Source of the DNA: Sphingomonadaceae bacterium
GTDB taxonomy: Bacteria; Pseudomonadota; Alphaproteobacteria; Sphingomonadales; Sphingomonadaceae
Direction: 5' to 3'
DNA: 64,000 nucleotides
Assembly (NCBI GenBank): GCA_021732525.1
Contig: JAKFUU010000040.1
Span: 62,001-126,000 of the forward strand
This document shows positions 8,349-23,072 of this stretch, one piece after another. How positions within the stretch are numbered: position 1 is the stretch's first letter; every line of letters begins with the position of its first letter. The notes beneath the pieces were generated by a model. That model did no database searches. It saw nothing but the letters and a program-made list of their open reading frames with translations, and was not told the origin of the DNA. Position numbers and translations under genes: made by a program.

Positions 8349-8450
8349 ATGAAAGCTTTTGAAAAAGCAAAGCAGGTCGAAGGCCAAACCGAAGGTTTCT
8401 GGACTTGGCTACTTGGACGTGCGGGCGGAAGCACCGGCGTCAACGGCTAA
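8349..8450 (+). CDS. 33-residue peptide, unknown function
   Basis: ATG at 8349 follows a strong Shine-Dalgarno (GGAG, 8338-8341, 7 nt spacing). It encodes 33 residues starting MKAFEKAKQVEGQ, with an aromatic centre (EGFWTWLLGRAGG) and a Gly-rich end (STGVNG). The N-terminal part is a short charged amphipathic stretch, and there is no signal peptide or cysteine. A promoter and a perfect intrinsic terminator flank it, so it forms its own short transcript. No modification enzyme lies next to it, so a modified peptide is not supported. It may be a signalling or regulatory small protein acting with the neighbouring CHASE2 and kinase genes; that is inference. Confidence 0.65.
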   Translation: MKAFEKAKQVEGQTEGFWTWLLGRAGGSTGVNG

Positions 8451-8535: not shown

Positions 8536-8584
8536 CCAATCAACCGGGCCAATCAACCGGGCCAATCAACCGGGCCAATCAACC
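8536..8584. repeat. Tandem 13-bp repeat, 3.8 copies
   Basis: Three perfect copies of CCAATCAACCGGG (8536-8574) plus ten bases of a fourth. The array overlaps the stop codon of the TIR gene on the minus strand, so its last codons lie inside the partial copy. It is a short simple array, not a CRISPR. Confidence 0.9.
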
Positions 8585-10522
8585 ATTCGGCACCGAAAAC
8601 CCAATCGATCGCAGCAAGGCGCGATAACGCGGTTCATTCCTTAACGGAGCAAGCTGCGGATCATTCCGCGCGAGAACGAGCCCTGAATCGCCAATTTTCC
8701 GCGCCTTTTCAAGCGCAGCCAACGCAGCCGCGCGGTCACCCCACTGCGCCAATATCTGCGCCTGTTGGTAAAGGCTGCTATCACCAACATCCTTGCGAAT
8801 ATTTTCCAAGGCGGCGGCGGCCTCGTTTTTGTTGCCGAGCTTATGCGCGACCATCGCGACCCCTTTAAGACGCAAAAGCTCCCATGGGTCGCGCTGATAA
8901 AAGGAAAGCGCCTTGTGATATTGCCCGCGCCCATAATGAATATCGCCAATATCGGCATTCACGCTGTTCATTTTAGGGTTCATTTTAAATGCCTTATTGA
9001 GATCAGCAAGTGCCGCATCAAAATTCCCCATAATATAATATAAGCGCCCTTTGGTTCGAAAAGCTATTGGGTTCAAGAGATCGAGTTTTGCCGCGGCATT
9101 GATCGCTTTTTCGGCCACTTCAAAATTTCCAATGCGGGCCATATAGGTCGCAAAATTCTGGAGAATATCGGCGCTACCCGATCCATATTTATAGGATTTT
9201 TGATAGGGATCATATGCCGCCTTTGCATCCAAACGGCCATTGAACAGCACATAGCCCAGCGCGGCATGTCCCGCGGCGAGATCAGGTGCCAAATCGGTCG
9301 CTTTTTTTGCCGCCGCGATCGCCTCTGCGTAAATGACGTCAAGCTCGCGCGCTTTTGCGTAAGCATTGGCGATCGTCGTTAAAGTTCGCGCGCGTGCCGC
9401 CCAAGCAGCGGCATATTGCGGATCGGCTTCCACAGCGCCATCAAATTGCGCCAAGGCCGCCCTATCACTATTTTCATCGACCGCGAGATCATACAAAGCA
9501 GTGCCGCGCAAATAAGCTTCATAAGCCGTTCGGTTTTTGGTGGCTCCGGGGCGAACCAGACCCATCGCGGCGGAGGTGTGAATTGACAAAGCCTTGGCAA
9601 CCGCCTTTGCAATATCGGTTTGAAGCGCAAATATATCGGTCGTTGAGCGAACAAAACCACCAGACCAGCTATCCAACCCCATTTTTCCATCCACCAATTG
9701 AACAGTAACCCGGATCGCGTCATTCACCCTGCGCACACTACCGCGCAGAAGAAATTGCACCTTTAATTTTGAGGCAATAGTTTTGTCATTATAATCAGTA
9801 TCATTAAATTGCTCAGAGGATGCTTTGGCAACAATCTGAAGGTGCTTGATGGTTGCCAACGTATTTCGCAGCTCCTCCGACAATCCGTCTGAAAAATAGT
9901 CCTGTGATTTGTCGTCGCCCATATTTTTGAACGGAAGGATAGCCAGCTTACCCAGCACTTCCGATCCGCCAAACCAATCCATATTCCAAGCAACCAACCC
10001 GGTCGCAGCAGCGGTAGCAACCGCACCGCCAGTTAAGAGCAACCGGCGATCAATTTTTGCCCTCGCCGGGGTAAAGTGATAATTTTCCGAGATCGGCACG
10101 TCATGAAGCCCGCGGACCGCATCCAACAGCTTCATCATGGCGGGCGATGCAGGCCGGGAATAGCTACGTGAGATGTCAATGACTTGAAACTGCCGAAAAC
10201 CCAGCGGCGGCTCAGTTCCATCAATAGACAGCGGCACCAAGCAATGACGATCGCGGCCCCGTGTTGCTTCGTCATGAACCCAATGCGATTGGACCGAATT
10301 TTTCGACCATAAGACGACAACCGCCTTTGCATTTTCCAACATGTCATCGGTGGTGTCCGCAAATTTTTCGCCGCCAGCAAGCAGCCCATCCCACCAAACC
10401 GAAAAACCGGCCTTTTCCAAAGCGTCGATGATTGGAATCGCAATTTTTTGGTCCGCGCGGGAATAGCTCACAAAAATACTGCGACGTATTTTTGAAAAGC
10501 GGACATCAGCGTCGCGAGCCAT
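8579..10522 (-). CDS. TIR-domain membrane protein with TolB_N-like and TPR regions
   Basis: A 647-residue protein. The N-terminal TIR-like domain (12-140) has the IFVSYSRAD strand, WWD at 43-45 and SVQSHWVHDEA. Here E85 is in the position of the catalytic Glu of NADase TIR domains. A single membrane helix (161-180) follows, then a TolB N-terminal/FlgO-like domain (about 190-310, ILPFKNMGDDKSQDYFSDGL), then TPR-like helical repeats to the end. Proteins of this build are often labelled adenylate-cyclase-like, but no cyclase domain is seen. It is transcribed away from the SLOG gene at 10773, sharing a 250-bp control region. It could be a signalling NADase or a scaffold; enzymatic activity is inferred only from the Glu. 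Confidence 0.8.
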   Translation of the reverse strand: MARDADVRFSKIRRSIFVSYSRADQKIAIPIIDALEKAGFSVWWDGLLAGGEKFADTTDDMLENAKAVVVLWSKNSVQSHWVHDEATRGRDRHCLVPLSIDGTEPPLGFRQFQVIDISRSYSRPASPAMMKLLDAVRGLHDVPISENYHFTPARAKIDRRLLLTGGAVATAAATGLVAWNMDWFGGSEVLGKLAILPFKNMGDDKSQDYFSDGLSEELRNTLATIKHLQIVAKASSEQFNDTDYNDKTIASKLKVQFLLRGSVRRVNDAIRVTVQLVDGKMGLDSWSGGFVRSTTDIFALQTDIAKAVAKALSIHTSAAMGLVRPGATKNRTAYEAYLRGTALYDLAVDENSDRAALAQFDGAVEADPQYAAAWAARARTLTTIANAYAKARELDVIYAEAIAAAKKATDLAPDLAAGHAALGYVLFNGRLDAKAAYDPYQKSYKYGSGSADILQNFATYMARIGNFEVAEKAINAAAKLDLLNPIAFRTKGRLYYIMGNFDAALADLNKAFKMNPKMNSVNADIGDIHYGRGQYHKALSFYQRDPWELLRLKGVAMVAHKLGNKNEAAAALENIRKDVGDSSLYQQAQILAQWGDRAAALAALEKARKIGDSGLVLARNDPQLAPLRNEPRYRALLRSIGFSVPNG

Positions 10523-10772
10523 TGGCGATTAATCCCCCTAACTTCCGTGGCGCGACCCATGCATATCCTATGCCAATAGCCGGCTTGTAACAAGTCCTTT
10601 GTTATTTCCGGCACGCCCAGAGTCTTCCCGGTTCAGGTTGAACCAGAAAGACGCTAAAAATTATTTGCCTGTTGTGATTTCTTAATCGTAACGCGCCCGC
10701 ATCTTACTCATAATCACCCTAAGCATCAACGGAAAAGCTTGCTGGAATAGCAATTTACGCTACGATGGCTTC

Positions 10773-12746
10773 ATGACTATTGAAGCACAAATGTCGGATT
10801 CATGGGATTTGTGCTCCGCCTGGCTAAGGATTGGAATAACCGGGCACCGTGACGGCAATCTCTCATTTGCTGCTAATCAAAGCGCAATTTTGGACAATCT
10901 TACAGCCTTTTTTAAGCATGTTGACGCGGCAACGATGGGTGAGCAATTTTGCCGGAAAAGGTTAATTTCGCCCTTCGCGCAAGGCGCAGATTTAATGGCG
11001 ATCGAATGTGCATTGGCGCTCAAATGGGATGTCGCAGCACCCATACCTTTTGGGTTTGAACTCAACAAGGCGATCAATGGCCATTGTGAATCCAGCGCCG
11101 ATATATTGGCAATTTTAAACGGGCTTGAACCCGCCGATCCCAAAGCGCGAGCCAGCGCGGCTCACTTCAGTAACATCGCCAAAGATGTCCGCCTTTTTGA
11201 ACTTGCCGAACAAGATGATAATCTGCGCCAGCTTTACATTGAAACGTTGCGGCATCCCGAAAATCAGCCAGCCGCCCAAAAATTTGCAACAATAACGTCC
11301 GAACGCGCCAGGACAGCAGCCCAGATCATGATTGAACAGTCGGATATCATCGTCGCAATTTGGGATGGAACGACGTTGGGCTCGCTTGGCGGAACGCATC
11401 ATACGATTGCGACAGCCCTCCATATGGGGGTTCCCGTGCTGTGGATTGACGCAAGGACGCCAAGCCTGCGCTTCCTGCTGACCAAGCCAGAGCAGCTGGT
11501 AACCCTGCATAATTTAGGGGATGCAGTGAATCATGACCAGGTTGAAAAGTTTATCAACGATACCGTCTGCGCAATAATTGGCGGGAATGAAGCAAAAATA
11601 ACAGCGCTACATAGTGAAAAATGGCCAGTAAGAAGCAAACGCCGTTTTCATGCCTACCGTCGTGTCGAAGCAATTTTTAGCGGCAACCTGAAACGGACAT
11701 TCAGCAACATTCGCCAGCATTATGAAAGGCCAAATGCCATTGCCAGCGGTTCCGCAGCGGCATTAATGGGTTCAGCCCGCAATATTTTGGGCCCAAATAG
11801 CATTTATCTTAACCAGTTGGAAAACCATATATTGAAGCCGTTTGCTTGGGCAGACGGCTTATCTTCCTTTCTTTCCGATGCCTATCGCGGCGGCATGATG
11901 ACCAATTTCTTGCTGTCGGCGATGGCCATTATTGTCGGCGCGGCCTATCTTCCCTTGGGCAATTCTTCTCTCAAATGGCCATTTGCATTTGCCGAATTTC
12001 TGCTGCTAATGTCGATCTTGTTGATAACGACGGTCGGCAGGCGTCGCGACTGGCATGGGCGATGGTTTCAAACCCGCAGAGTCGCTGAATATCTTCGCCA
12101 TGCGCCCATATTGATGCTTACGGGCGTAGCGCGTCCGGCTGGACAATGGCCAAGAAGCAAAGATACAGAATGGCCAGAAGGTTATTGTCGGCGATTGATT
12201 TCCACATTGGGCTTGCCCCCGGTGACCGTCAATCAGGATTATCTCCGACATATGCTGGTCGATGTTATCGCACCGCATACCGTCAAACAACGCCAATATC
12301 ATGAAAAAAAAGCAGCACAATTAAGCATAGTGCATCACAATCTGGATAAAGCATCCGAAATGTCATTTATTTTGGCAGTAATATCGGTCGCGACATATTT
12401 GGCAATCGTGGTTGGTGAGCAACTCGATTTTTTACCTCATTCGGTTAGCTACTCATCCTCGAAAATTTTTACCTTCTTGGGCATAGCATTCCCGGCTATT
12501 GGCGGTGCCTTTGCTGGCATTCGCTATTTTGGGGATTTTGAACGATTTGCCGCGATCTCCGAAATAACCGCAGAAAGACTGTCTGGTCTTGAACAACGGA
12601 TCGAATTACTATTATCGGCCCCATCGGGCAGTATACGCTATATGAACGTTACCGAAATTGTTCATTCCATCGACGATGTTATTGTGAGTGAAATTGAAAA
12701 TTGGCAAGCCGTGTTTGCCGGAAAACAAATAGCTGTTCCTGTTTAG
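10773..12746 (+). CDS. SLOG-like nucleotide-sensor domain protein with four membrane helices
   Basis: A 657-residue protein with no certain family name. The N-terminal third shows a Rossmann-type pattern of SLOG/DprA-like domains: RIGITGHRDG near residue 20, SPFAQGADLMAIE near 65-75, and DIIVAIWDG...LGGTHH near 190-208. The C-terminal half has two pairs of membrane helices (about 378-397, 405-425, 532-548 and 564-585) with a soluble stretch between, resembling SLATT-type effector membrane domains known to accompany SLOG and SMODS sensors. Domain names rest on pattern reading. Its place opposite a TIR gene recalls Thoeris-like immunity, where SLOG domains bind a TIR-made cyclic ADP-ribose. A role in membrane disruption on ligand binding is inference. 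Confidence 0.7.
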   Translation: MTIEAQMSDSWDLCSAWLRIGITGHRDGNLSFAANQSAILDNLTAFFKHVDAATMGEQFCRKRLISPFAQGADLMAIECALALKWDVAAPIPFGFELNKAINGHCESSADILAILNGLEPADPKARASAAHFSNIAKDVRLFELAEQDDNLRQLYIETLRHPENQPAAQKFATITSERARTAAQIMIEQSDIIVAIWDGTTLGSLGGTHHTIATALHMGVPVLWIDARTPSLRFLLTKPEQLVTLHNLGDAVNHDQVEKFINDTVCAIIGGNEAKITALHSEKWPVRSKRRFHAYRRVEAIFSGNLKRTFSNIRQHYERPNAIASGSAAALMGSARNILGPNSIYLNQLENHILKPFAWADGLSSFLSDAYRGGMMTNFLLSAMAIIVGAAYLPLGNSSLKWPFAFAEFLLLMSILLITTVGRRRDWHGRWFQTRRVAEYLRHAPILMLTGVARPAGQWPRSKDTEWPEGYCRRLISTLGLPPVTVNQDYLRHMLVDVIAPHTVKQRQYHEKKAAQLSIVHHNLDKASEMSFILAVISVATYLAIVVGEQLDFLPHSVSYSSSKIFTFLGIAFPAIGGAFAGIRYFGDFERFAAISEITAERLSGLEQRIELLLSAPSGSIRYMNVTEIVHSIDDVIVSEIENWQAVFAGKQIAVPV

Positions 12747-22620: not shown

Positions 22621-23072
22621 CGGACAAGGCTGTCCTTGCTTTGCTGGCCCGTTTTCATGTCAATGTCGGCCAATTCGCGGGGCACATAATTTTCGTCATG
22701 TTTGGCCAGCAAGCTGTCGGCGATAAATATACCGTTCGCTGCCAATCGGCCGTCGGCGACAACGCCCGATCCTTCGACAAATAAATCGGGCGTAATCCCG
22801 GTGTAACGCACATTCAGCGATGCATCCCGGTCCTGCACCACAAAACGGATCGAAACGCCGTCTGCACCGCGCGTGATCGATCCGGGCTGCACCAGTCCGC
22901 CGATCCTTATTGCCTTGCCGGGGGCTGGTTTATCCCTCGCCAATGATGAAGGCGTGTAAAAATAGGATACCTCTTCACGCAGCGCCGACGCGGCTATCAA
23001 ACCCGCAGCCAGCAAAGCCGACGCGGCAAGGACGGCAAGCAACAGCCGCTGATGTTTTGCCTTTACCGCCAC
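22617..23072 (-). CDS. ccmE: Heme chaperone CcmE
   Basis: A 151-residue periplasmic protein anchored by one N-terminal helix (LLAVLAASALLAAGLIAASAL). The heme-binding motif LAKHDENYVP holds H125 and Y129, which bind heme covalently before passing it to CcmF. The start is GTG at 23072, three bases after the ccmD stop. Confidence 0.95.
   Translation of the reverse strand: MAVKAKHQRLLLAVLAASALLAAGLIAASALREEVSYFYTPSSLARDKPAPGKAIRIGGLVQPGSITRGADGVSIRFVVQDRDASLNVRYTGITPDLFVEGSGVVADGRLAANGIFIADSLLAKHDENYVPRELADIDMKTGQQSKDSLVR

Follow-up and report, generated by a model that had tools for sequence, protein, structure and literature searches.

A divergent TIR and SLOG-membrane gene pair

The window analyzed here is a stretch of 64,000 nucleotides from a Sphingomonadaceae bacterium (assembly GCA_021732525.1, contig JAKFUU010000040.1, positions 62,001 to 126,000); coordinates given without a locus label are positions within it. 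The window carries a gene for a predicted TIR receptor (647 amino acids; 8579..10522, minus strand) opposite a SLOG-membrane gene (657 amino acids; 10773..12746, plus strand). Both open reading frames are real and divergent, with 250 bp (10523..10772) between their start codons. The original prediction, made from the sequence alone, had placed the two genes around one such shared control region and proposed them as a nucleotide-signal immunity pair.

The TIR protein consists of a TIR domain, one membrane helix, a TolB_N-like domain and TPR repeats, in that order. The TIR domain (residues about 14-140; 10103..10483, minus strand) was recognized by a Pfam TIR_2 match. Aligned to AbTIR, its Glu85 (codon at 10268-10270, minus strand) takes the NADase position, a pocket placement given by sequence alignment only. 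The glutamate is intact, as originally predicted, and invariant across all 44 relatives in the alignment. The ThsB_TIR model scored the protein at 15.8 bits, below its cut-off of 21.2. By hydropathy, a membrane helix (residues about 161-183; 9974..10042, minus strand) is predicted after R159-R160, which would give an N-in topology by the positive-inside rule; the structure model is poor near this helix (predicted local distance difference test, pLDDT, <50 for residues 165-187).

The remaining TolB_N and TPR half (residues about 189-640; 8603..9958, minus strand) has the periplasmic sensor of CadC as its best fold match, and the TIR domain replaces the N-terminal winged-helix DNA-binding domain of CadC receptors. 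The membrane anchor, TolB_N-like domain and TPRs had been recognized earlier; the CadC-like fold that unites the second half had been missed. This half is probably periplasmic and, taken with the membrane helix, suggests that the trigger is periplasmic as well. A tandem repeat of ~14 bp in three to four copies was also seen by eye at the 3' end of the TIR gene (8541-8585), and a second TIR_2 protein of about 500 amino acids (2.0e-20) is encoded on another contig of the same genome (L053; G000:C11, around 22627-23001).

A SLOG domain joined to four membrane helices

In the second protein, a SLOG domain (residues about 15-270; 10815..11582, plus strand) contains the motifs TGHR, WDG and GGT. The predicted structure has a SLOG Rossmann fold whose nearest folds are YpsA and DprA, with weaker matches to TRPM2 and to the SLOG domain of ThsA bound to 3' cyclic ADP-ribose (3'cADPR). 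No SLATT or DUF4231 structure is among the fold matches listed, but all of these come from the SLOG part, so this absence carries no weight. When sequences in the PDB were searched with the profile of the whole protein, nothing convincing was retrieved (best E 0.023).

The membrane part (11895..12521, plus strand) has four helices arranged as two hairpins with a conserved RRxAEYLR region between them, and is DUF4231/SLATT-like by hydropathy, alignment and a DUF4231 match. That match is a narrow pass (25.4 bits, cut-off 24.7), and DUF4231 was matched at E<=0.001 by 17 of 44 relatives. The SLATT_1 score was sub-threshold (32.1 bits vs a cut-off of 41), leaving only the DUF4231 side matched. Neither a SIR2 nor a macro domain was among the Pfam, PADLOC and NCBIfam matches of the pair. 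The earlier description of a SLOG-like protein with four membrane helices therefore agrees with the predicted fold and the hydropathy profile, and so does its suggestion of a membrane unit in place of SIR2.

The SLOG protein could instead be a LOG/YpsA-like hydrolase that removes or edits the product of the TIR protein, as a brake or a second step, with the membrane part a mere anchor. We consider this improbable because the alignment shows many invariant residues in the membrane part, more than an anchor needs, and because inspection of alignment A1 by eye revealed no LOG-enzyme motif. Nor are the closest folds, YpsA and DprA, known as typical LOG enzymes.

Co-occurrence and linkage of the two genes

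We searched for both proteins in 196 genomes drawn from the order and 385 drawn from the class, and ran profile searches on 298 genomes of the family. The SLOG protein was matched in 35 of the 196 order genomes and, at 1e-15, in nine of the 385 class genomes, of which two belong to the same family as the window. The TIR protein was matched at 1e-30 in 49/196 order genomes, many via the TolB-TPR part only. Within the family, 66/298 genomes had SLOG and at least 47/298 had the TIR family at the cut-off kept, the TIR counts per genome being lower bounds because some TIRs may be missed. Both genes were present in 42 genomes, SLOG only in 24, TIR only in 5 and neither in 227 (Fisher 2e-28). These numbers use 52 of 65 TIR rows, 13 weaker rows being left out; their addition would give 49 TIR genomes, 43 with SLOG and 6 without. 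Because the genomes are kin, the genus count is fairer, and here too the genes coincided (both in 22 of 96 genera, SLOG in 34, TIR in 25; 2.8e-10).

The genes are also physically close. Nineteen of the 32 core SLOG genes lie within 5 kb of a TIR gene (18/31 when the window is removed), against an expectation from random placement of about 0.3% per TIR gene. The linked arrangements were divergent in nine cases, TIR-first in six, convergent in three and SLOG-first in one, and the nine divergent, window-like pairs have 156-704 bp between matches. Conserved linkage had been anticipated, and association held (42 of 47 TIR genomes also have SLOG). Linkage that survives this kind of reshuffling speaks for a functional tie and not for a gene order that was simply frozen. 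In addition, the distance matrices of 20 linked TIR-SLOG pairs correlate with each other (r 0.66, with 0 of 2000 permutations as high). The TIR-SLOG pairing is not chance.

The association extends to more distant proteins. In a distant SLOG group, 5/35 matches fall within 1 kb of a TIR gene, and at L047, L073 and L074 a more distant TIR lies head-to-tail with SLOG. A set of 80 named loci was taken as the best 80 among at least 407 relatives; the counts cover the 41 with full flanks and leave out the other 39. In 28 of the 41 a TIR gene was identified with the family TIR profile, including the more distant TIR genes of L140 and L171 (377-436 bits). For the remaining 13 the fetched stretch contains no TIR domain, and for one of these, L165, a TIR lies 18 kb away. 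Among the matches listed, Sphingomonadales bins, one of them called Sphingorhabdus, are the nearest named relatives of the SLOG protein, and the hosts include Sphingomonadales, Hyphomonadaceae, Caulobacteraceae and Lysobacteraceae. Five gammaproteobacterial rows occupy two places of the tree, which suggests transfer, with the caveat that four of the five are metagenome bins.

Proteases and an ion-channel protein as third partners

Many relatives carry a third gene, which the original prediction had missed. The 27 core SLOG loci of 18 kb, a set that excludes the window, include 19 with a TIR gene, and a trypsin-like S1 protease is present in 18 of these 19 (the exception is L065) vs none of the eight without a TIR gene, two of which (L061, L063) have a more distant TIR. 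Each of the six proteases that were scanned has a Trypsin match of 2.3e-27 or better. Of 30 trypsin-like proteins, 22 have exact TAAHC and GDSGGP motifs and 23 have a hydrophobic N-terminal stretch, which makes it likely that the protease is secreted.

The counts of 18/19 and 0/8 could mean that TIR works chiefly with the protease as its real partner and that SLOG is a frequent but optional neighbor. Where TIR lies away from SLOG (14 loci), the protease is likewise beside TIR in five (L076, L078, L085, L086, L087). The other nine have none in the stretch, however, and L082 (12 kb) and L157 have SLOG and a protease with no TIR in the stretch, against a strict protease-TIR rule. In the window and its close relatives L116 and L118, the fetched stretch holds TIR and SLOG but no protease (a caspase profile matches in L116 at 37 bits). 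On balance we think this reading unlikely. Because L116 and L118 also have no protease, the window may belong to a two-gene subgroup.

At L056, L070 and L087 the protease has beside it a caspase C14 protein with a sub-threshold DUF4384 match, and the two genes stand next to the TIR gene (L056:11475-14634; L070:10962-13969; L087:3185-6270). The two would form a possible extracytoplasmic protease couple. There are four C14 matches in the 41 named loci, one of them weak (L150, 45 bits). A two-transmembrane ion-channel protein (Ion_trans_2) is encoded near the SLOG gene in 9/27 core loci and 12/41 named loci; at L034:9937-10407, L042:9968-10438 and L057:10013-10480 it is a small protein beside SLOG with a TTLGIGD filter-like motif.

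The window has no protease, caspase or Ion_trans_2 partner gene. We considered whether the third gene lies elsewhere in its genome, and the sole trypsin match there is a 499-amino-acid open frame on contig C6 (1.3e-19) that appears HtrA-like and was rejected as a candidate. The genome has no C14 match.

Other TIR architectures with SLOG

The TIR protein accompanying SLOG is not always of the window's type. The SLOG gene is followed by a gene for a TIR protein with TPRs in L125 and L129, two loci truncated on one side; a scan of the L125 protein gave weak STAND/NB-ARC matches, none of which reached the cut-off. In L133, SLOG stands between a TIR-TPR gene before it and a TIR-FGE gene after it (FGE 3.4e-45), and L126 also has a TIR-TPR gene. 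Genome G159 encodes a TIR-AAA-TPR protein of 1176 amino acids elsewhere in the genome and G719 a look-alike of 1205. In the TIR-AAA-TPR proteins of about 1200 amino acids at L195:4381-7911 and L196:4038-7655, a stretch resembles a class III nucleotide cyclase by eye; Pfam reported none for L195.

Of 13 core SLOG genomes without an adjacent TIR, 12 were taken (G748, with two TIRs, was left out), and 11 of the 12 have TIR_2 at E<=7.8e-20, a cut chosen after the data had been seen. Six of the 11 were already known from the family TIR profile search; among the other six genomes, five have TIR_2. Of 22 genomes without SLOG, 13 have TIR_2, none at 7.8e-20 (best 6.3e-16). The exception among the 12 is G164, whose SLOG-membrane protein (L043:7994-9964) has LISHD and ENG where TGHR and WDG stand elsewhere, the sole row of 44 lacking both motifs. 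The G164 protein is possibly decaying, and this one case would look like a receiver that lost its signal. A recurrent TIR with a varying sensor part beside a constant SLOG-membrane protein is the layout expected if the TIR makes a diffusible signal that SLOG reads.

Genomic context

The window's genome is 3.0 Mb in 68 contigs, and the genes next to the pair encode a CHASE2-EAL protein and a NUDIX protein. At nine sister-genome loci of the genus around an M48 gene, the NUDIX gene is retained beside M48 in seven, and none of the nine fetched stretches, one of them a 2.7-kb contig end, contains the pair. Six same-genus genomes in the order-wide draw had no SLOG match. The absence of the pair from sister genomes points to an accessory insertion or a loss-prone unit. 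We considered carriage by a phage or plasmid and rejected it: no phage record was found, and a single plasmid record, whose fetched stretch is devoid of annotated features. In the 250-bp intergenic region we found no sigma-70-like promoter pattern, nothing above shuffles in a promoter scan and one terminator-like pattern (0.7 expected). A possible 33-amino-acid open reading frame (8349-8450, plus strand) was seen by eye between the CHASE2-EAL and TIR genes; it is preceded by a purine-rich stretch and followed by a hairpin and T-run.

A defense-island setting, which the original prediction had raised as a question, was not supported. We listed 79 neighboring proteins from 15 loci and scanned 68, of which two matched PADLOC at 1e-15 (capP, mad2). 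Pfam gave 72 families; the 25 listed are largely metabolic and transport and also include CHAT (2 members), nSTAND1 (1) and a Tle1-like phospholipase (1). No island is evident, and without a matched control region these counts speak neither for nor against enrichment.

The lack of an evident island counts for a different function, envelope-stress or environmental signaling in place of immunity, where the CadC-like half would sense a periplasmic condition and the SLOG protein would be a regulated channel or ion valve. CadC is an acid and lysine sensor, and the CadC-like fold points the same way, as does the Ion_trans_2 gene in 12/41 named loci. Against this, the patchy presence of the pair (66/298 family genomes, none in the six same-genus genomes), its rearranging loci and its varying TIR partners resemble accessory conflict genes, and trypsin-like and caspase-like peptidases recur in the predicted conflict systems that PMC7159879 describes. 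We regard stress signaling as a real but lesser possibility.

Relation to known systems

The logic of the pair, read from its domains, is Thoeris-like, yet the pair is not Thoeris, since it has no SIR2 or macro effector. Passages of PMC11204291 and PMC10022894 treat the binding of TIR-made cyclic ADP-ribose to SLOG in Thoeris as established, and the latter gives the ThsA pocket residues as R371, K388 and E403. As in the SIR2-SLOG type (ThsA/ThsB), a TIR with a catalytic-type glutamate lies beside a SLOG-fold gene whose product could bind cyclic ADP-ribose, and the adjacent genes are kept as a pair. Here, however, SLOG is N-terminal, joined to four membrane helices and without SIR2, a CadC-like half and a predicted receptor role at the membrane set the TIR protein apart, and 3'cADPR binding is putative. 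The TM-macro type, as outlined in PMC11204291, also combines a TIR with a membrane effector bearing a nucleotide-binding domain, and that effector is proposed to act by membrane perturbation; our protein differs in having a SLOG sensor, not macro, and four helices, not two. An NCBIfam model and one unrelated listing supply the name Thoeris type III, and a type IV is cited in PMC13373217.

SLATT-type membrane proteins are predicted in passages of PMC7159879 and PMC9503650 to be nucleotide-responsive pores, and the TIR plus 2TM SLATT neighborhoods described there likewise link a TIR to a SLATT-like membrane protein. Those neighborhoods lie in firmicute phages, whereas ours are in alphaproteobacterial genomes, with SLOG fused to two hairpins and a TIR protein bearing a membrane helix and a CadC-like part. 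With CadC-like one-component receptors the TIR protein shares a CadC-type periplasmic fold behind one membrane helix, but its cytoplasmic output is TIR, not a DNA-binding winged helix. The likeness to TRPM2, an ADP-ribose-gated channel with a SLOG-type N-terminal region, is remote, at a Z where chance folds occur, and no TRP channel core was seen here.

Thoeris and TIR-SLATT logic are known. Among the papers listed by searches of an open-licence library, which leaves out most subscription papers, no title or abstract described this pair or its architecture, a CadC-type membrane TIR receptor combined with a SLOG-four-helix effector. Burroughs and colleagues (2015, on nucleotide-centric systems) may describe related SLOG/SLATT proteins.

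A model for the pair

We favor, as more likely than not, a two-gene module in which the TIR receptor makes an NAD-derived nucleotide that gates the SLOG membrane effector. The TIR protein would be a transmembrane receptor with its CadC-like half in the periplasm and its TIR domain in the cytoplasm. On a trigger, the TIR domain would consume NAD+ to give an ADP-ribose-type nucleotide that binds the SLOG domain of the neighboring protein. The four-helix part would then open or assemble into a pore and depolarize the cell, and growth arrest or abortive death would follow. In many relatives the protease, sometimes with the caspase-like one, may process the trigger or the receptor; a periplasmic trigger would fit with a secreted protease partner. 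Of the originally proposed immunity pair, the pairing held, and nucleotide signaling and immunity are what we infer from it.

More tentatively, the module may be part of a Toll-like pathway. An extracytoplasmic serine protease, joined in some relatives by a caspase-like one, would feed the membrane-spanning TIR receptor. The SLOG channel would then be gated by the receptor's NAD-derived product, much as TRPM2 is by ADP-ribose, and the window would hold a reduced two-gene form. We offer this extension as a possibility short of likely.

If the model is true, the TIR protein would be a bacterial receptor with the topology of animal Toll, having an outside sensor, one helix and an inside TIR, and it would talk to a membrane effector via a small nucleotide, with a secreted protease as the third part in many relatives. 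TIR signaling would thereby be extended from cytoplasmic to envelope sensing, and the pair would offer a testable bacterial parallel to ADP-ribose-gated channels. Since SLOG-membrane proteins pair with several TIR architectures, they may also serve as a handle for finding more such systems.

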